Shown here: positions 10,637-56,468 of the stretch, in pieces
How positions within the stretch are numbered: the stretch's first letter is position 1
How the letters are laid out: each line of letters starts with the position of its first letter
DNA from: Oscillospiraceae bacterium
GTDB lineage: Bacteria; Bacillota; Clostridia; Oscillospirales; Ruminococcaceae
Assembly (NCBI GenBank): GCA_017435745.1
Contig: JAFSEN010000039.1
Coordinates: forward strand, 1 to 56,823
Reading direction: 5' to 3'
Length of the DNA stretch: 56,823 bases
Notes under the pieces: generated by a model
Told to the model about the DNA's origin: nothing
The model's input: only the letters and a program-made list of their open reading frames with translations
Databases searched by the model: none
Made by a program: the position numbers and the translations under genes

Positions 10637-10847
10637 ATCCCTTCTCCACCGTCTTCGACGGTCCCCCCTCCTCCTCCGAGGAGGTTAAAACAAAAACCTT
10701 CCTTTTTGTAAAATACATGTTTTGCCGTAGAGAACGGTCTTGACCGTTCCGAAAACAGCGACCCGGAAGGCAAAAAAAAGAATCCCCCGGTCTTTTTATT
10801 CGCAGGCGAATAAAAATCCAGCCCCCTTTAGGCAAGGGGGCCTTTTT
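10637..10847. repeat. Intergenic mosaic of palindromic repeats
   Basis: Three repeat classes lie end to end. At 10637-10684 is a CCACCGTC-TTCG-ACGGT hairpin followed by CCTCCTCCGAGGAGG. At 10732-10749 is GAACGGTC-TT-GACCGTTC. At 10790-10845 are an AATCCCCC unit with TTTTTATTCG/CGAATAAAAA and a CCCCCTT-TAGGC-AAGGGGG hairpin, whose last part may also terminate transcription. Related copies occur throughout the window. No gene here. Confidence 0.8.
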
Positions 10848-13455: not shown

Positions 13456-13516
13456 TGTAGGGACCGCTGTCCTCAGCGGTCCGTTTTTCGGAACGTCGGG
13501 AACGACGTTCCCTACA
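13456..13516. repeat. Composite palindromic element, TGTAGGG...CCCTACA type
   Basis: Ends TGTAGGG (13456-13462) and CCCTACA (13510-13516) are inverted repeats. Inside are two perfect 9-bp hairpins with 4-nt loops: GGACCGCTG-TCCT-CAGCGGTCC and GGAACGTCG-GGAA-CGACGTTCC. The same architecture with different stem sequences is at 43739-43798. Confidence 0.85.
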
Positions 13517-23505: not shown

Positions 23506-23594
23506 GTAGGGCGGGGTCTTGACCCCGCCGTTTTTTATTTACGGTTTATCTGAATGGAATGGGATTTGCGGCAGGAGCAAGCCCCCGCCCTACA
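23506..23594. repeat. Composite GTAGGG...CCCTACA element between murI and ddl
   Basis: Begins GTAGGG (23506-23511), contains GGCGGGGTC-TT-GACCCCGCC (23510-23529) and an imperfect GGCAGGAGC-AA-GCCCCCGCC near the far end, and ends CCCTACA (23588-23594), directly abutting the ddl stop codon. Confidence 0.8.
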
Positions 23595-24738: not shown

Positions 24739-24757
24739 GGGCGGATAATATCCGCCC
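24739..24757. repeat. GGGCGGATAATATCCGCCC palindrome
   Basis: Perfect 19-nt palindrome with odd centre, followed by CTAC. Near-identical copies at 22604, 37699 (ATATTAT centre) and 43815. Confidence 0.8.
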
Positions 24758-24781
24758 CTACTGGGGTTTGTTGAACCTTTT

Positions 24782-25939: not shown

Positions 25940-27916
25940 TCAATCGGTTTTTACGCATTTATGCGGAATTTCGTGCTTCTGGAAAAGCTGGCCGCAGCGG
26001 GTGCATTTCCAGGCCCAGGGATGTTCTCCGGTGAATTCAAGGGGACCTTTGCAGTCGATATATTCCGGTTCGGCCGCTTTTGCTTCCTCTTTATGTTTCT
26101 GTTCGCCTGCGGCTTCTGCAAGACGCTGTTTGCGTTCTTCGGCGCGTTTGCGGTAGAATTCCGGGTCATAGGCGGTCATTCCTTCGGAATCGGTTTCGGG
26201 TTTTACCTGGTTGTCGGGTTTGCGTTTTTCTTCCCTTACCGGAGGAACATATTCGGTTACTGTATATTCTTCCTCTTCTTCCTCGGCGGGTTCTTCTGCC
26301 GCAGGTTCTTCAAAAACGGTTTCTTCGGAAACTTCTTCCTCCGCCGGTTCTTCGAAGATTTCTTCTTCGGCTTCAACAGGTTCTTCGGCTGCTTCCTCGG
26401 TTACTTCTTCGATTACCGGTTCTTCAAATTTGGAACGGTCAAGACCGTTCCCTACAGTTTCCTCGACAGGTTCCTCAACAACAGGTTCTTCAACTACGGG
26501 TTCGACCGGTTTTGCGCGTTTCGGTGCAAAAGGATTTACCCATTCTTCATCCGGAACGGATTTATAAGGGTTCGGTGCGGGAACAGGTTCCGGCTGGGGT
26601 TCGGGAATGGGTTCCGGGCGAACGGGTTTATAGGGATTTACGTAAGGAGCCGGTGCAGGTGCAGGCTGCTGCATGGGCTGCTGGGGCATTGCGTAGGGAT
26701 TTTGCTGATACTGGGGCATCTGCTGGGGCATTCCGTAAGGATTTTGCTGATACTGGGGCATCTGCTGGGGGTTCTGCTGATACTGCATCTGCTGCTGGGG
26801 CATTGCATAGGGATTCATATAGGGGTTCATATAAGGGTTGGGAGCCATCTGCTGCTGCATTGCGGCAATGCGCTGGGCAATAACGGTTTCCATTTCGCCT
26901 CTGAATGCGGCAAGTTCCGCTTTGATGGATTCTGCGGTATCGTCGGCGATTTCTGCGCGAAGTTCATCAAGGCCGGCTTCCTGTTCTTCCGGTTCGGAAA
27001 GAGCGGCAAGCTGGACGGCGGTTTTTGCGGCAAGTTTTGCGTTGTTGTAAACAAGCTCGATATTTGCGTCAAGACTCATTCCGCCGGTCATTTCTTTTAC
27101 AAGAGTGAGAAGGAAGGGGGTGAGTTCTTTTCCTTTGATGTTGTTTTCTTCGGCTTTTTTAACGGCAATTTCGATTGCTCTGTCGGCCATGCCTTTGGAC
27201 ATTGCGTATTCCTTGGGAATGGGGTTGCCTACAAGCATACCGCCGTGGATTCCGAGATCGAGTTTTGCTTTGAATGCGGCGGCAAGTTCGTTGGGGGTGT
27301 TGATTCTGTAATCAACGCCGAATCCGCTTTCTCTGCAATAGAATGCGGGAAGTTCGTCGGTGCCGTATCCGATTACCGGGACGCCTTTTGTTTCAAGATA
27401 TTCAAGGGTAAGGCCGATATCAAGAATGGATTTTGCGCCGGCGCAAACGACCATTACGTCGGTTCTTCCAAGTTCTTCAAGGTCTGCGGAAATATCCATA
27501 GTGGTTTCCGCTCCGCGGTGAACGCCGCCGATTCCGCCGGTTGCAAAGATTTTGATTCCGGCCATTGCGGCGATTATCATTGTGGAAGCAACGGTTGTTG
27601 CGCCGTCCTGTTTTGTTGCGGCAAGAATCGGAAGATCTCGGCGGCTTGCCTTTGCGATTTTTGTGCCTTTTTTGCCGAAATATTCAATTTCTTCCGCGGA
27701 AAGACCAACTTTGAATTTACCGCCGATAATAGCAATCGTTGCGGGAACGGCGCCTTCGTTGCGGATCATTCTTTCAACGTTTTTTGCGGTGTTTACGTTC
27801 TGGGGGTAGGGCATTCCGTGGCTGATGATGGTGGATTCAAGAGCGACGACGGGTTTTCCGTTTTCAAGAGCGGATTTTACCTCGGGTGCAATATCAAGAT
27901 ACTTTGCAAGATTCAT
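25940..27916 (-). CDS. psuG: Pseudouridine-5'-phosphate glycosidase fused to a disordered linker and zinc ribbon
   Basis: A 658-residue protein. Residues 1-305 are a complete PsuG, which splits pseudouridine 5'-phosphate into uracil and ribose 5-phosphate. Known E. coli catalytic residues map in register: Glu27, Lys89, His133, Asp145, Lys162, Asn285. The remaining 350 residues are unusual: a short helical segment, a Met/Pro/Gln/Tyr/Asn-rich low-complexity tract (about 355-430), a long Glu/Pro/Val acidic tract (about 470-580), and a C-terminal zinc ribbon (WKCTRCGQLFQKHEIPHKC). About residues 487-496 (VGNGLDRS) are encoded by an intergenic-type palindromic repeat inserted in frame. ATG 27916 follows AAGGAGGA. 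No psuK kinase is nearby. Confidence 0.9.
   Translation of the reverse strand: MNLAKYLDIAPEVKSALENGKPVVALESTIISHGMPYPQNVNTAKNVERMIRNEGAVPATIAIIGGKFKVGLSAEEIEYFGKKGTKIAKASRRDLPILAATKQDGATTVASTMIIAAMAGIKIFATGGIGGVHRGAETTMDISADLEELGRTDVMVVCAGAKSILDIGLTLEYLETKGVPVIGYGTDELPAFYCRESGFGVDYRINTPNELAAAFKAKLDLGIHGGMLVGNPIPKEYAMSKGMADRAIEIAVKKAEENNIKGKELTPFLLTLVKEMTGGMSLDANIELVYNNAKLAAKTAVQLAALSEPEEQEAGLDELRAEIADDTAESIKAELAAFRGEMETVIAQRIAAMQQQMAPNPYMNPYMNPYAMPQQQMQYQQNPQQMPQYQQNPYGMPQQMPQYQQNPYAMPQQPMQQPAPAPAPYVNPYKPVRPEPIPEPQPEPVPAPNPYKSVPDEEWVNPFAPKRAKPVEPVVEEPVVEEPVEETVGNGLDRSKFEEPVIEEVTEEAAEEPVEAEEEIFEEPAEEEVSEETVFEEPAAEEPAEEEEEEYTVTEYVPPVREEKRKPDNQVKPETDSEGMTAYDPEFYRKRAEERKQRLAEAAGEQKHKEEAKAAEPEYIDCKGPLEFTGEHPWAWKCTRCGQLFQKHEIPHKCVKTD
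26432..26460. repeat. Palindromic intergenic repeat inside the psuG coding sequence
   Basis: GGAACGGTC-AA-GACCGTTCC followed by CTACAGTTT. The 29 nt are identical to the intergenic copy at 56208-56236. Here they encode TVGNGLDRS on the minus strand without breaking the frame. Confidence 0.9.
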
Positions 27917-27958
27917 GGATAATGGCTCCTCCTTCATAGGCGAACTTTTACATATAAT

Positions 27959-27987
27959 ATAATAATAAAAATAAGGCGCTTTGTCAA
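27959..27987 (-). promoter_or_regulatory. psuG promoter
   Basis: Minus strand: TTGACA (complement of 27982-27987), a 17-bp spacer, TATTAT (27959-27964). Confidence 0.8.
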
Positions 27988-27994
27988 ATAGTAA

Positions 27995-28023
27995 TTGCGG
28001 AAAGAGGTTAAAAAGGGTATAAT
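27995..28023 (+). promoter_or_regulatory. cysK promoter
   Basis: TTGCGG (27995-28000), a 17-bp spacer, TATAAT (28018-28023). Back-to-back with the psuG promoter, 8 bp apart. No T-box or S-box leader seen before cysK. Confidence 0.65.
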
Positions 28024-28052
28024 ATTTTTGTTGGCTGCAATATGGAAACGAA

Positions 28053-28105
28053 TTCCTCCACCGTGCCATACGGCAACGGTTCCCTTCCGTTTAGACAAGG
28101 GAGGC
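28053..28105. repeat. CCCTCC-type repeat unit in the cysK 5' leader
   Basis: TTCCTCCACC, TGCC-ATAC-GGCA hairpin, CCCTTCCGTTTAGACAAGGGAGG. It lies between the cysK promoter and its ribosome site, so it is transcribed as part of the leader. Confidence 0.7.
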
Positions 28106-29120: not shown

Positions 29121-29353
29121 CCGTAAGGAACGGTCTTGACCGTTCCGCCTTGCCTTCCCTCGGGGGAAGGTGGCAAAACCGAAGGTTTTGACGGATGAGG
29201 GACAACCACATAACCCGGAGGGCAGGCATTCTGTTTACTGTAGGGCGGGACCTTGGTCCCGCCGAAATCCTATCCGGTTGGATTTATTCGCATTTTTTAC
29301 GGAATCATCGGAATACAGCCGACAACCCATAAAGAATCCCCCAGCCTTTTTTA
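29121..29353. repeat. Long mosaic repeat, copy A (contains the 112-nt core at 29233-29344)
   Basis: In order: GGAACGGTC-TT-GACCGTTCC; CCTTCCC...GGGAAGG with AAAACC-GA-AGGTTTT; then the 112-nt core starting GTTTACTGTAGGGCGGGACC and ending GAATCCCCCAG. The core recurs at 46954-47065 and 47208-47318. No gene is seen across 29058-29495. Confidence 0.85.
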
Positions 29354-29495
29354 ATACAAATATAACCGGTCATCGGATGCGGGCAAAAGCGTTTTTTTGT
29401 TTTTTCAATTTTTAAATTTTTTCGGGAATAAAAAAACTTTCGGCGGCAAAAATATTTCCGAAAAGATTATTTTTTTGAAAAAAGGTGGTCATAAA

Positions 29496-37698: not shown

Positions 37699-37908
37699 AT
37701 AGGGCGGATATTATCCGCCCTATAAAAAAAGGCCCCCTTGCCTAAAAGGGGCTGTCACGCTTTTAAGAAAAAGTGCGTGACTGGGGGATTCTTTTACATA
37801 TTACCGGAATTTTTTTGAATCCCTCCTCAGTCAGCTTCGCTTACACCTTCCCCCGATAGGGTAGGCTGTAACGTCGGAACAGTCAAGACCGTTCCCTACG
37901 GTAAATGG
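37699..37908. repeat. Palindromic repeat cluster between tmk and the glycosyltransferase
   Basis: Contains GGGCGGATATTATCCGCCC near 37699; at 37733-37792, in minus orientation, a GGGGGC...CACGC/GCGTG...CCCCC unit shared with 47055-47116 and 47310-47373; a CCCTCC-GTCAGC-TTCGC unit; and at 37876-37902 GGAACAGTC-AA-GACCGTTCC-CTAC. No gene. Confidence 0.75.
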
Positions 37909-43738: not shown

Positions 43739-43834
43739 GTAGGGACCGTCGTCCCCGACGGTCCGTTTTGCGGAACGCTGAGGACAGCGTTCCCTACAAT
43801 AAAACAAACCCCGGGCGGATAATATCCGCCCCTA
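43739..43834. repeat. Composite GTAGGG...CCCTACA element plus GGGCGGAT palindrome
   Basis: GGACCGTCG-TCCC-CGACGGTCC (43743-43764) and GGAACGCTG-AGGA-CAGCGTTCC (43772-43793) lie inside GTAGGG/CCCTACA ends. A few bases later is GGGCGGATAATATCCGCCC (about 43814-43832). Same architecture as 13456-13516 with different stem sequences. Confidence 0.85.
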
Positions 43835-43835
43835 C

Positions 43836-46877: not shown

Positions 46878-47373
46878 TCCCTCCTCCACCGTCTTCGACG
46901 GTCCCCCTCCTCCTCCGAGGAGGCAGAAACAATTCCGAAGGGAAAAGCCTCCCGTTTACTGTAGGGCGGGACCTTGGTCCCGCCGCAATCCTATCCGGTT
47001 AGATTTATTCGCATTTTTTGCGGAGTCATCTGAATACAGCCGACAACCCATAAAGAATCCCCCAGTCACGCACCTTTTCTTAAAAACGTGACAGCCCCCT
47101 TTAGACAAGGGGGCCTTTTTTAAAAAAGCCTTCCCAGAGGGGAAGGTGGCAAAACCGAAGGTTTTGACGGAAGAGGGATAACAATTAACCCGGAGGGCAA
47201 GCATTCTGTTTACTGTAGGGCGGGACCTTGGTCCCGCCGCAATCTTATCCGGTTAGATTTATTCACATTTTTGCGGAGCCATCGGAATACAGCCGACAAC
47301 CTATAAAGAATCCCCCGGTCACGCACTTTTTCTTAAAAGCGTGACAGCCCCCTTTAGGCAAGAGGGCCTTTTT
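46878..47373. repeat. Long tandem mosaic of palindromic repeats (copies B and C of the 112-nt core)
   Basis: 46878-46923 is a CCACCGTC-TTCG-ACGGT/CCTCCTCCGAGGAGG unit. Core copy B is 46954-47065, followed by a CACGC...GCGTG/CCCCCTTTAGACAAGGGGG unit to 47117. The AAAACC-GA-AGGTTTT segment is at 47152-47168. Core copy C is 47208-47318, followed by the second CACGC...GCGTG unit to 47373. The order B-link-C matches copy A at 29121-29353. No gene is found across about 600 bp. Confidence 0.88.
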
Positions 47374-47450
47374 TATCCGCCCGATATTTTTGCATTATGC
47401 ACTTTGAATTTTGCATTAAAAAAGCACCCTTCCGGGTGCTTTTTTTGATA

Positions 47451-50618: not shown

Positions 50619-50666
50619 GCTTTTAATTTTTAAATGGTTTTCTCCGCAAGGAGAAGAAGAATTTTA

Positions 50667-51623
50667 TCAGCCGAGAGGTGCATAGTCTTCCGGAACGTTG
50701 ATTCCGAGAGCGGCGCAGTTTGCTTCGTTATAAAGTTTCTGAACGTCAGCGGCATAAGCGATTTCCATTTCGCCGGGGTTTGCGCCGTTTACAAGAATTT
50801 CGTATGCCATTTCGCCTGCTGCATAACCGATGTCATAATAATCGATGGAAAGGGTTGCGATTCCGCATCCGCCGCAAATACCGGCTTCGCCTGCTACGAT
50901 AGGAGTACCTGCGGGAATTGCAACGTTTGCAATGGTTTCGGTGCAGGATGCTGCGGTGTTATCGGTGGGGATATAGATAACGTCTGCTGCTGCGCAGGCC
51001 GCGGTTGTTACGGAAGCAACGTCGTTGGAGTCTGCGAAAGTGAAAACTTCAACTTCATAACCCATGTCGGTAAGATAGCCGCTGATAACGTCGGACTGAT
51101 ATACGGAGTTGGGTTCTGCGGAGCAATAGAGAATACCGACAACTTTTGCATCCGGGAAGAGTTCCTGGATCATTGCTGCCTGTTCATCAAGAGGAGCAAG
51201 GTCTGCGGTACCGGTGATGTTGGAACCGGTTTTTCCGGTCCAGCCTTCAATTTCAAGAGCGGTTGCATAGTCGGTGATGGAAGTTCCGACTACCGGAATT
51301 GTTGCGGAAGCAGCGGCGGCAGCTTGGAGAGCTGCGGTTGCGTTGCCCATCATAAGATCAACACCTTCTGCTACAAGCTGGTTGCAGATGGTTACGCAGG
51401 TTGCTGCATCACCGGAAGCGTTCTGTTCGATAAAGTTTACTTTGTCGCCGAGCTTTTCGGTAAGAGCAGCCTTAAAGCCTTCGGTTGCAGCATCAAGAGC
51501 TTCGTGCTGAACAAGCTGGCAGATGCCTACTTTGTAGGCGTCTTTTGCTGCCGGCTCGGAAGAGCAGGCCGCCATTGAAAGAACCATTGCGATAACCATG
51601 AGAATACTTACGAGTTTTTTCAT
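50667..51623 (-). CDS. ABC transporter substrate-binding lipoprotein (TrpX-like), copy 1
   Basis: A 318-residue binding protein. Lipobox S-M-A-A-Cys20. The mature protein has two Rossmann-like lobes typical of ABC_sub_bind proteins: VGICQLVQHEALDAATEGFKAAL and IPVVGTSITDYATAL in lobe 1, VVGILYCSAEPNSVYQSDV in lobe 2. This family binds tryptophan or tyrosine-like substrates in characterised members. It precedes its permease and ATPase genes and sits behind a leader-peptide attenuator. Very similar along its length to the second copy upstream, with some stretches identical at DNA level. Confidence 0.92.
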   Translation of the reverse strand: MKKLVSILMVIAMVLSMAACSSEPAAKDAYKVGICQLVQHEALDAATEGFKAALTEKLGDKVNFIEQNASGDAATCVTICNQLVAEGVDLMMGNATAALQAAAAASATIPVVGTSITDYATALEIEGWTGKTGSNITGTADLAPLDEQAAMIQELFPDAKVVGILYCSAEPNSVYQSDVISGYLTDMGYEVEVFTFADSNDVASVTTAACAAADVIYIPTDNTAASCTETIANVAIPAGTPIVAGEAGICGGCGIATLSIDYYDIGYAAGEMAYEILVNGANPGEMEIAYAADVQKLYNEANCAALGINVPEDYAPLG

Positions 51624-51655
51624 TTTTCATTTCCTCCGAAAATTTTAAAAATCGA

Positions 51656-51719
51656 TACAAAAAAGCGGTTTCCAAAAAGGTTTTGGAAACCGCTTTGATT
51701 TGCAATTCAAAATTGCAAA
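51656..51719 (-). terminator. Leader terminator and preceding hairpin
   Basis: A perfect 16-bp stem, AAAGCGGTTTCCAAAA (51662-51677) with TTTTGGAAACCGCTTT (51681-51696), precedes a T run on the minus strand: a strong terminator 39 bp before the binding-protein start. TTGCAATT/AATTGCAA (51700-51718) forms a smaller hairpin just upstream. Sequence near 51731-51742 (AAGGCTTTTGG on the minus strand) can pair with CCAAAACCTT of the terminator arm and loop, a possible antiterminator. Confidence 0.75.
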
Positions 51720-51747
51720 ACGCTTGCAGAGGCCAAAAGCCTTTTTT

Positions 51748-51837
51748 TCAGGAATTTTTCATGCGGCAATAAGCGCTCATAAATCGAGCGCGGCGATACA
51801 TGAAATATTCTTTTTCAAAAACTTTCATGTTTTTCAT
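51748..51837 (-). CDS. Candidate 29-residue leader peptide rich in Tyr/Phe
   Basis: ATG at 51835-51837, stop TGA at 51748-51750. Residues include Phe7, Tyr11, Phe12, Tyr14, Phe19 and Tyr23, with a basic stretch Arg15-Arg18. AAAGG/GAAAGGA precede the ATG. It lies between a consensus promoter and a terminator in the leader of the ABC importer, the position of classical attenuator peptides. No Trp codon, and no T-box motif, is present. Confidence 0.5.
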   Translation of the reverse strand: MKNMKVFEKEYFMYRRARFMSAYCRMKNS

Positions 51838-51881
51838 AGCCTTTAAAATCCTTTCTGAAGCGTTTGCTTTTGATGTTTAAA

Positions 51882-51910
51882 AGTATAACGCTTTAAAGAG
51901 GTAAAGTCAA
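51882..51910 (-). promoter_or_regulatory. Promoter of binding-protein gene copy 1
   Basis: Minus strand: TTGACT (complement of 51905-51910), a 17-bp spacer, TATACT (51882-51887). The palindrome CTTTAAAG (51891-51898) sits in the spacer, as in copy 2. Confidence 0.75.
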
Positions 51911-51984
51911 GGCTTTTTTCGCGTTTTTTTGCTGTTTTTTAAAAATTTTTTCGGAAAATATTCGATTTTTGCAAAACGGAATGA

Positions 51985-52941
51985 TCAGCCGATTGCAACA
52001 TAATCCGCAGGGGGGTTGATTCCCAGAGCGGAACAGATTTCTGCGTTATATTTTTTGATAACTTCCGGAGCATAGCCGATTTCCATTTCGCCGGGGTTTG
52101 CGCCGTTTACAAGAATTTCATAAGCCATTTCGCCGGCAATATAGCCGATATCATAATAGCTGATGGAAAGAGTTGCAACGCCGAAACCTTTGCAGGCATT
52201 TTCTTCACCGGAAATTATTGGAGTTCCGGCCGGAAGAGCAACGTTGTTGATGGTTTCCGCGCAGGAAGCGGCGGTGTTATCGGTGGGGATATAGAGAACG
52301 TCGGAAGCGGCGCATGCGGTGGAAACTACGTTTGCAACGTCGTTTGTATCCGCAAAGGTGAAAACTTCGCAGGAAAGTCCCGCTGCTTCAAGTTCTTCAA
52401 TTACAATGTTTGCCTGATAAACAGAGTTGGGTTCCGCGGAGCAATATACGATTCCGACTTTTTTTGCATCCGGGAAAAGTTCGGTTACCATTGCCGCCTG
52501 TTCGGAAAGGGGAGCAAGATCCGCTGTGCCGGTAATGTTTCTTCCGGTTGCTCCGGTCCAATCGGCAATTTCAAGGGCGGTTGCATAGTCGGTGATGGAA
52601 GTTCCGACTACCGGAATTGTTGCAGAAGCAGCGGCGGCAGCCTGGAGAGCTGCGGTTGCGTTGCCCATGATGAGATCAACGCCTTCGGAAACAAGCTGGT
52701 TGCAGATAGTGATGCAGGTTGCGGCGTCGCCGGAAGCGTTGTGTTCGATGAAAGCAACGTCTTCACCGAGTTTTTCGGTAAGAGCAGCCTTAAAGCCTTC
52801 GGTTGCGGCGTCAAGAGCTTCGTGCTGAACAAGCTGGCAGATGCCTACGGTATATTTTCCTTTTGCGGCGGGTTCGCTTCCGCAAGCGGCAAAGGAAAGC
52901 ACCATTGCAAGTACAACAAGAATACTTACGATTTTTTTCAT
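51985..52941 (-). CDS. ABC transporter substrate-binding lipoprotein (TrpX-like), copy 2
   Basis: A 318-residue paralogue of the adjacent binding protein, equal in length and close throughout; lipobox S-F-A-A-Cys20. Differences cluster in lobe 2 (IVIEELEAAGLSCEVFTFADTNDVANVV) and near the C-terminus (ENACKGFGVATLSISYYDIGY), which may alter specificity. It has its own promoter and a hairpin in the 5' leader but no permease or ATPase, so it presumably shares those of copy 1. Arisen by tandem duplication. Confidence 0.92.
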   Translation of the reverse strand: MKKIVSILVVLAMVLSFAACGSEPAAKGKYTVGICQLVQHEALDAATEGFKAALTEKLGEDVAFIEHNASGDAATCITICNQLVSEGVDLIMGNATAALQAAAAASATIPVVGTSITDYATALEIADWTGATGRNITGTADLAPLSEQAAMVTELFPDAKKVGIVYCSAEPNSVYQANIVIEELEAAGLSCEVFTFADTNDVANVVSTACAASDVLYIPTDNTAASCAETINNVALPAGTPIISGEENACKGFGVATLSISYYDIGYIAGEMAYEILVNGANPGEMEIGYAPEVIKKYNAEICSALGINPPADYVAIG

Positions 52942-54460: not shown

Positions 54461-54976
54461 TCAGTCATAAAGGCAGGAATCGCAATAAAGTCTGTCGCTG
54501 GCGATACTTTTTCCGCAATCCTGGCAAACCCCGAAACCGAGGCATTTATCGCAATAGAGCCTGTCGTCGTCAATGCTTTTTCCGCAATCCTGGCAAACCC
54601 CGAATCCGAGGCATTTATCGCAATAGAGCCTGTCGTCGTCAATGCTTTTTCCGCAGTCCTGGCAAACCCCGAATCCGAGGCATTTGTCGCAATAGAGCCT
54701 GTCTGCGTCTATGGATCTTCCGCAGTCGAGGCATTTTCCGCTTCCGTAATCATATCCGCTGTCATAGTCATAGTCATAATCATAATCATAGCTGTCGTCG
54801 TAAATCGGGATCAGCGCATCGTAGCAATCTTTGCAGAAATACCAGCCTTCAAATTCGGCGATCGTTTTATATGCTCCCGCGCTTTGGCAGATATTGCAGT
54901 TTCTTTCGGGCGCGCCGCAGGAAGAAAAGGCAAAAATCATTGAAAGCACAAGCAGAACGGAAATTATCTTTTTCAT
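54461..54976 (-). CDS. Lipoprotein with Tyr-Asp tract and four tandem cysteine-knuckle repeats
   Basis: A 171-residue lipoprotein, lipobox F-S-S-Cys20. It begins with an isolated pair of CxxC motifs (NCNICQ, FCKDCY), followed by a Tyr/Asp-repeat tract, and then four repeats of 23 residues, each with CxxCG...LYCDKCLGFGV. Each repeat has four cysteines in a zinc-ribbon-like arrangement, unusual for an extracytoplasmic protein; they could bind metal or form disulfides. The repeats are almost identical at DNA level. No function known. Divergent from another cysteine-repeat lipoprotein. Confidence 0.8.
   Translation of the reverse strand: MKKIISVLLVLSMIFAFSSCGAPERNCNICQSAGAYKTIAEFEGWYFCKDCYDALIPIYDDSYDYDYDYDYDSGYDYGSGKCLDCGRSIDADRLYCDKCLGFGVCQDCGKSIDDDRLYCDKCLGFGVCQDCGKSIDDDRLYCDKCLGFGVCQDCGKSIASDRLYCDSCLYD
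54480..54755 (-). repeat. 69-nt tandem coding repeats (four units)
   Basis: Four 69-nt in-frame units encoding CxxCGKSIDDDRLYCDKCLGFGV-like peptides; the middle two are nearly identical in DNA. Suggests recent expansion. Confidence 0.85.
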
Positions 54977-56207: not shown

Positions 56208-56236
56208 GGAACGGTCAAGACCGTTCCCTACAGTTT
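56208..56236. repeat. GGAACGGTC/GACCGTTCC-CTACA half-element
   Basis: A 29-nt copy identical to the one inside psuG (26432-26460). It lies between the lipoprotein terminator and the GGGtGRT relic. Confidence 0.85.
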
Positions 56237-56442: not shown

Positions 56443-56468
56443 GGCGGGAGCAAGCCCCCGCCCTACAT
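56443..56468. repeat. GGCGGGAGC/GCCCCCGCC-CTACA half-element
   Basis: Imperfect palindrome of the GTAGGG/CCCTACA family, ending 16 bp before the GGGtGRT stop; closely resembles 23570-23594. Confidence 0.8.

Follow-up and report, generated by a model that had tools for sequence, protein, structure and literature searches.

Within the reading frame of a psuG paralogue, an Oscillospiraceae bacterium carries a short palindrome that recurs between genes of the same contig. We asked what this palindrome is, how it came to be read as protein, and whether it serves the gene that hosts it. An initial annotation of the 56,823-nucleotide stretch analyzed here (the window) had reported that positions 26432-26460 are identical to 56208-56236 over 29 nt and encode TVGNGLDRS in a Glu/Pro-rich tract of psuG. 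A repeat comparison of the window bore out the identity, and the reading of the peptide proved correct, psuG being the minus-strand ORF at 25940-28069. By simple arithmetic, approximately 1e-8 identities of 29 nt are expected by chance in such a window. Furthermore, the 24-mer that starts at GTAG has 32 matches at two or fewer mismatches in the 1,818,117-base, 103-contig genome (1.82 Mb), compared with none for the reversed 24-mer used as a control over the whole genome. Taken together, these values exclude chance as the source of the identity.

On the coding (minus) strand of psuG, the 29 nt read AAACT-GTAG-GGAACGGTC-TT-GACCGTTCC. The element proper comprises 24 of these (26432-26455, minus strand), GTAG-GGAACGGTC-TT-GACCGTTCC, and forms a perfect hairpin after GTAG, with a predicted single-stranded DNA fold of -8.4 kcal/mol (z -3.2). 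It codes for VGNGLDRS, and the insertion adds nine codons to the psuG tail. The other five nucleotides, AAACT, are 5′ flank, part of which corresponds to a border preference of the family. The intergenic copy at 56208 lies between genes, right after a terminator-like hairpin, as judged by eye. The features of this locus are as follows.

25940..28069, minus strand: psuG paralogue with a long Q/P- and E/P-rich tail (Pfam PF04227 Indigoidine_A, E=1.5e-133)
26240..26545, minus strand: Glu/Pro-rich tract, EWVNPFAPKR to EYTVTEYVPP, with in-frame REPs in 3 of 13 genus species (alignment of relatives)
26432..26455, minus strand: GTAG-tagged REP in frame in psuG, encoding VGNGLDRS (repeat, hairpin and genome pattern searches, single-stranded DNA fold)
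26456..26460, minus strand: 5′ flank AAACT, shared with the 56208 copy; its ACT codon gives the Thr before VGNGLDRS, and the family consensus is A-C-Y, then GTAG (repeat and border comparison)
56208..56231, minus strand: intergenic copy of the psuG REP (repeat comparison and pattern search)

The psuG start codon is probably further downstream than the ORF boundary, at MNLAKYLD. The tail ends in a Cys-His motif (CTRCGQLFQKHEIPHKC), and matches from the genus extend to the end of psuG. A second psuG in the same genomes matches the enzyme domain only.

The psuG insertion is a GTAG-tagged REP of 24 nt in a genome with RAYT genes. Its relatives likewise consist of a short stem-loop whose foot is an unpaired GTAG, measure 24 to 28 nt and occur as many dispersed, mostly intergenic copies, and a RAYT gene associated with the same REP is present in the genome. 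Within the window, 14 occurrences of GTAG are followed by a hairpin scoring at least 7, and several stems are represented. The additional REPs located in the window are listed here.

10727..10750, plus strand: psuG stem family, tag GTAG, one stem change (pattern search)
13457..13482, plus strand: REP with stem GGACCGCTG, half of an inverted dimer (repeat comparison and hairpin scan)
13490..13515, minus strand: REP with stem GGAACGTCG, partner half of the dimer with 13457..13482 (repeat comparison and hairpin scan)
23506..23529, plus strand: REP with stem GGCGGGGTC (hairpin scan)
23570..23593, minus strand: REP with stem GGCGGGGGC, one mismatch (pattern search)
24739..24761, minus strand: REP with stem GGGCGGATA (hairpin scan and pattern search)
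29123..29146, plus strand: psuG stem family, tag GTAA (pattern search)
29240..29263, plus strand: REP with stem GGCGGGACC (hairpin scan)
37876..37899, minus strand: psuG stem family, one mismatch (hairpin scan and pattern search)
43739..43764, plus strand: REP with stem GGACCGTCG, half of an inverted dimer (repeat comparison and hairpin scan)
43772..43797, minus strand: REP with stem GGAACGCTG, partner half of the dimer with 43739..43764 (repeat comparison and hairpin scan)
43813..43835, minus strand: REP with stem GGGCGGATA (hairpin scan and pattern search)
46961..46984, plus strand: REP with stem GGCGGGACC, within a longer composite repeat (repeat comparison and hairpin scan)
47215..47238, plus strand: REP with stem GGCGGGACC, within a longer composite repeat (repeat comparison and hairpin scan)
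56443..56466, minus strand: REP with stem GGCGGGGGC (hairpin scan and pattern search)

By eye, 13457-13515 and 43739-43799 are two inverted, REPIN-like REP dimers with stem parts swapped: GGACCG and GGAACG bases carry CTG or TCG tops, as if the stems were mosaics in which both arms changed together. The composite repeat that holds the GGCGGGACC REP occupies 46947-47375 (two copies about 254 nt apart) and 29226-29401, also holds other palindromes (CAGCCCCCTTTAG.. and CCTTCCCAGAGGGGAAGG), and looks like a separate MITE-like family. Elsewhere in the window, two stretches within 50666-52704 are 74-84% identical and 1318 nt apart, perhaps as adjacent paralogues, and tandem repeats with 69-nt and 117/123-nt units occupy 54471-54746 and 2166-2528.

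We then counted hairpins over 265,305 bases of the genome's own sequence, made up of the 57-kb window and 20 stretches of other contigs. A hairpin scoring at least 8 follows 16 of 360 GTAG tetramers, and 15 of the 16 begin with GG. The same count gives 1 to 7 for each of 12 other tetramers (426-2195 occurrences apiece) and 15 for TAGG, which overlaps the GTAG tag and scores highly for that reason. The spread is uneven, with 12 of the 16 GTAG hairpins in the window and four in the 208 kb from the 20 other contigs. The borders of 95 distinct copies have A at -3 in 81%, C at -2 in 59%, a pyrimidine at -1 in 87%, and G after the hairpin in 93%, and the farther flanks show mainly an A/T bias, along with T in 59% at -6.

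Three of the 32 copies in the genome were placed in genes, namely psuG, a CopA-like gene and one RAYT gene, and the other 29 were not. A codon score applied to those 29 copies flagged only one (L011, contig C56), which was rejected as a gene insertion because by eye it adjoins a terminator-like hairpin. Note that the RAYT copy, on contig C85, was not flagged by the codon score and was called coding from RAYT homology.

The initial annotation had likened the psuG insertion to Rickettsia palindromic elements (RPEs), which are selfish palindromes often found in frame in genes. The resemblance is real in one respect, in that a palindrome is read in frame as an inserted peptide, as in psuG and CopA here, and RPE inserts are tolerated (PMC2229807). 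However, RPEs are 105-146 bp long (PMC2229807), not 24 nt, the intragenic Rickettsia repeats RPE-4 and RPE-6 are of the CGTC type (PMC3733652) rather than GTAG-tagged, and the available text of these two sources gives them no RAYT link, whereas RAYT genes are present in this genome. In addition, only the three copies named above, of 32, are placed in genes. The label was therefore not borne out for this 24-nt GTAG-tagged REP, and we regard an RPE-type origin as very improbable.

To trace the insertion, the psuG ORF was searched in 61 genomes, 15 of them of the genus, its own included. The tailed form, with an alignable tract, was present in 13 species (G000-G008, G010 and G012-G014), with G000 being the genome of the window; G009, which has a tail fragment only, and G011, which is divergent, also have psuG matches and were left out of the comparison. 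The same insertion is present in G000 and in G014, where it reads VGNVLDRS with one codon changed. The tract of G005 has two other in-frame REPs: VGNVALDVP derives from another stem, with one mismatch to the reference, and AGNGPDSFA is decayed, with four mismatches. In 10 of the 13 species, we found no tract element within six mismatches of ten stem families, the families and limit having been picked after an earlier scan of the CopA linker. The empty site of G003 reads GAGGAA-ATC-TTTGAAGAACCGGTAATC, and the filled site of G000 reads GAGGAA-ACT-(24 nt)-AAA-TTTGAAGAACCGGTAATC, for a net gain of 27 nt. The proposal of the initial annotation that a dispersed palindrome had been inserted with the frame kept is upheld by this comparison: most close relatives do lack the nine residues, and the opposite pattern, in which all relatives have the same peptide encoded by unrelated codons, was not observed.

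The further suggestion that the repeat was mobile recently is too strong for the psuG copy. Because the insertion is common to G000 and G014, whose psuG cores are 92% identical, and has one codon changed in the latter, it is not very recent and probably predates the split of these two species. In a tree of the psuG core, in which inner support is weak, G014 groups with G002 (97% core identity), which has no element, so loss or recombination must be assumed. One old insertion followed by later losses or recombination fits these data best; the alternative is two separate insertions at one site. The copy in G000 is without the usual 3′ G (93% conserved in the family), and the stem mismatch in G014 lowers the predicted single-stranded DNA stability from -8.4 to -5.0 kcal/mol.

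These comparisons also bear on whether the hairpin or its peptide is useful to psuG, for instance in mRNA stability, as a translation pause or as a binding peptide, and is kept by selection. The palindrome is perfect in the window genome and is common to G014, as would be expected of a selected feature. Nevertheless, 10 of 13 species have no element, the G014 stem has lost predicted stability, and other copies in psuG and CopA are decayed, with up to five mismatches. Because the elements decay, a functional peptide is not favored, and we judge such a use to be quite improbable. An assembly or binning artefact might also be considered, since the genome is a draft of 103 contigs with 5.3% estimated contamination and REPs are uneven over the sampled contigs. 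However, the insertion recurs, with a private change, in the separately derived genome G014, and a 24-nt repeat is shorter than the words usually used in assembly. An artefact is therefore extremely improbable.

In-frame insertions of the same family, which the initial annotation had suggested counting elsewhere in the genome, are present in a CopA linker and in RAYT genes. The second host gene, on contig C62, encodes a CopA-like P-type ATPase and carries the element in the linker that precedes the last HMA domain. Over the 13 alignable species (G009 has no CopA match and G011 a distant match only), the linker contains ten elements of at least four stems, ranging from perfect to five mismatches, in seven species and no element in the other six. 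All 14 elements of psuG and CopA, which are not independent events, lie on the sense strand in frame 0, and a codon-shuffle control on the same tracts yields 0.025 hits per complete set. In the sense direction, the psuG stem can be read through without a stop in frame 0 only. Its three antisense frames also lack stops, however, so frame alone does not explain why 14 of 14 are in sense. Intergenic copies of this stem between co-directional genes point with the genes in 20 of 25 cases (10 of 13 in the own genome and 10 of 12 in relatives), and 5 of 9 do so in a smaller sample of all stems. This orientation bias may be part of the reason for the sense-frame copies.

We next consider the enzymes that might mobilize these hairpins. 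A PF01797 profile search found Y1 transposases in 12 of the 15 genus genomes, with three matches in the window's genome. Two of the latter (contigs C62 and C67), together with a gene on contig C85 found through its REP, make up the three RAYT-type genes of this genome, and the third match (C91) is a short fragment. For four RAYTs, three from this genome and one from G003, the best family is NCBIfam REP_Tyr_transpos (NF047646), with scores of 61.6-69.9 bits that are below the cut-off of 80. The closest solved structure to the RAYT family, and its best PDB match, is TnpArep 4er8 (5.3e-12). As expected of TnpA-REP proteins, the HuH and single-Tyr columns are invariant in 54 RAYT sequences. Five strong IS200-type matches (L091-L095) look like another class and were rejected; L092 is without an embedded hairpin, and the other four failed the motif filter.

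RAYT-type ORFs contain GTAG hairpins in frame. In a scan of named genomes, we considered the best 80 of 562 loci, which are those closest to the query rather than a random sample; 78 have an ORF (L232 and L242 do not), and 63 of these carry in-frame GTAG hairpins, compared with 23 hits for ten permuted tags together. In these 78 loci, an N-terminal copy occurs in 32 of 50 titled Clostridia or other Bacillota versus 1 of 28 others, as grouped by record title. We then assembled 100 non-redundant ORFs, 24 of the genus and 76 of its closest named relatives (L110 and L166 are the same gene; L166 and L172, which belong to the two genus species G010 and G005, were dropped as duplicates from this count and from the tree). 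An antisense REP follows HuH in 80 of 100 (24 of 24 in the genus and 56 of 76 further ORFs), a sense REP precedes HuH in 50, and 48 have both. The paired REPs are inverted and in frame; relative to HuH, the first lies at residues -37 to -47 and the second at +11 to +22. In the six genus ORFs without a counted sense copy, the copy is at or before the start, outside the scan window, or decayed. RAYTs are usually single genes. Here, two or three related ones lie close together on one contig in some cases, namely L107 and L098 (G003 contig C51, 1.6 kb apart) and L097, L272 and L108 (G005 contig C84, within approximately 10 kb).

The two REPs of a gene match one another. Over the first nine bases of the stem, partners are identical at 8.67 positions on average, and 36 of 48 pairs are exact, versus 5.08 of 9 (SD 0.23) for shuffled partners, with 0 of 10,000 shuffles as high, although the shuffle ignores relatedness. 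We also built a RAYT tree of 103 rows, masking the residues encoded by REPs; an antisense stem is present in 83 rows, and 42 kinds of stem are represented. The 14 recurring kinds (55 rows) need 18 changes versus a minimum of 13, and all 42 need 46 versus 41, where the 28 kinds that occur once say little and many inner branches are weak. On this evidence, stems largely follow RAYT clades, with exceptions. Among three clades whose rows were drawn from the same tree, two conserve the embedded REP better than any other part of the gene: 0 of 417 and 0 of 408 other windows equal it, and third codon positions are 100% identical within it versus 49-53% elsewhere. This does not hold for the third clade, in which 26 of 404 other windows do as well. 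In an AlphaFold model of RAYT L098 (mean pLDDT 86.7, pTM 0.80), the REP-coded residues 38-45 and 94-102 are predicted to lie in loops of lower confidence, at 68 versus 89-98 for other blocks of residues 21 to 150, and the N-terminal REP falls in the connection from the first strand to the first helix.

Contig C85 holds the RAYT matching the psuG element (L065:1525-1989). Downstream of HuH, this gene contains the exact 24-mer in antisense, read in frame as AERSRPFPT, and a sense copy lies immediately 5′ of the gene start. A similar layout exists in G003, where the gene is broken, and in G006, G010 and G013. The G003 gene (contig C13, L250) is broken near its end with both REPs intact, in a genome with 43 copies of that REP.

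Stems embedded in RAYT genes are also dispersed in the genomes, and we compared their copy number with RAYT presence. Across 15 genomes and three stems, REP counts, which include copies inside RAYT genes, average 28.1 where a RAYT of the stem in question was found and 14.9 where none was (pooled p 0.005, from a test that assumes independence both among the stems of a genome and among related genomes). Single-stem p values are 0.18, 0.025 and 0.10, and the psuG stem alone gives 23.6 versus 16.3 (p 0.18). Genome G011 has no RAYT hit and 0, 0 and 0 copies of the three stems. G002 and G007, also with no RAYT hit, have 4, 11, 12 and 1, 0, 13 copies; G014, with an IS200-type hit only, has 10, 17 and 25; and in the draft genome of G005 the psuG stem occurs 67 times, although no RAYT matching it was found there. 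REPs may outlive their enzyme, or draft genomes may miss a RAYT. A strict rule of one RAYT, one REP was not adopted, being weakly supported by this comparison.

Copies in genomes where no matching RAYT was found would also be compatible with REP spread by template switching, gene conversion or slippage instead of RAYT cutting. Short perfect palindromes are suited to template switching, and the Glu repeats of the psuG tract do gain and lose units. However, across 95 copies the tag is fixed and the borders are ACY (5′) and G (3′), whereas the flanks are otherwise mostly unlike. This pattern points to a defined unit, and the repeated stems largely follow RAYT clades. We therefore consider spread by these processes rather unlikely.

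The psuG hairpin is a copy of a GTAG-tagged REP family that is most likely mobilized by RAYT-type HuH (Y1) transposases, and we hold this account, in which an old insertion is tolerated and decays neutrally, with considerable confidence. TnpA-REP enzymes of other bacteria bind and cut single-stranded GTAG hairpins (PMC8266576), and copies would then land elsewhere; those landing in genes would last only where the linker is tolerant and the frame open. In an ancestor of G000 and G014, a REP would have entered the Glu/Pro tract of psuG, a probably disordered region. It would have survived because it fell in the sole stop-free sense frame of its family and in a stretch of protein tolerant of extra residues, and the copy would now be decaying neutrally. 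The support for mobilization is comparative throughout, and from it we infer transposition itself; transfer by the RAYT, a single-stranded DNA intermediate, disorder of the tract and neutrality of the nine residues are likewise presumed.

A bolder proposal is that the REP is a coding module in these Clostridia: the RAYT gene would carry its own substrate as an inverted in-frame pair, and its hairpins, obliged to remain readable within that gene, would be pre-adapted to in-frame splicing into host linkers. Against this, the psuG-stem RAYT subfamily reads the copy after HuH in an antisense frame, and the sense copy is at or before the gene start in all five genus members, being open in the gene frame in G003 and G010. 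With this layout, there is no clear constraint from the gene to keep open the sense frame in which psuG reads the element, and the proposal is doubtful, though conceivable.

Both intragenic REPs and REPs within tnpA-REP genes are already published (PMC3733652, PMC6006769), and the psuG case alone is a further example. GTAG- and CGTC-tagged REPs were described in more than 80 species, with in-frame REPs in genes (Di Nocera et al. 2013, PMC3733652); as here, GTAG stands at one hairpin end, some genomes have several stems, and copies are mostly intergenic, often near RAYT genes and sometimes in frame. The main text of that paper has no words starting with Clostridi or Faecalibacterium. Quentin et al. 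2018 (PMC6006769) describe REPs in frame within the genes of TnpA-REP subclass 2.4, where they generally fall after HuH and before Tyr, in a variable insertion flanked by beta3 and alphaC. The antisense REPs reported above, in 24 of 24 genus and 56 of 76 further ORFs, share this placement between HuH and Tyr. The three G-C pairs at the stem bottom that mark this subclass are present in GGC- and GGG- stems but not in GGAACG- and GGACCG- stems, and by our own reading RAYT copies of several other phyla resemble the double-foot type of PMC6006769. In contrast to subclass 2.4 as described in the available text of that source, 48 of 100 ORFs here have a second, inverted in-frame REP before HuH. The Escherichia coli TnpA-REP binds and cuts single-stranded GTAG hairpins, at CT beside the REP (Corneloup et al. 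2021, PMC8266576). The GTAG-foot hairpin and HuH Y1 enzyme are common to both systems, and the ACY before GTAG here is comparable to the CT cut site; REPs lie around the gene there, as far as the accessible text describes, whereas here they are also coding. A literature search, mainly of open-access papers, found no paired N-terminal embedded REP, no Clostridia REPs and no REPs in psuG or CopA linkers.

What adds weight is that, within one genus, two unrelated host linkers have accumulated REPs of at least four stems, always in one and the same frame, and that presumed transposase genes of the same genomes often contain two in-frame REPs, matched and inverted, at fixed positions. In this setting, the joint change of a RAYT and its REP becomes a directly testable question. 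Should the doubtful coding-module proposal be true, enzyme and hairpin would be inherited and changed together, and the family would steadily supply bacteria with new protein segments, as in the psuG and CopA linkers.
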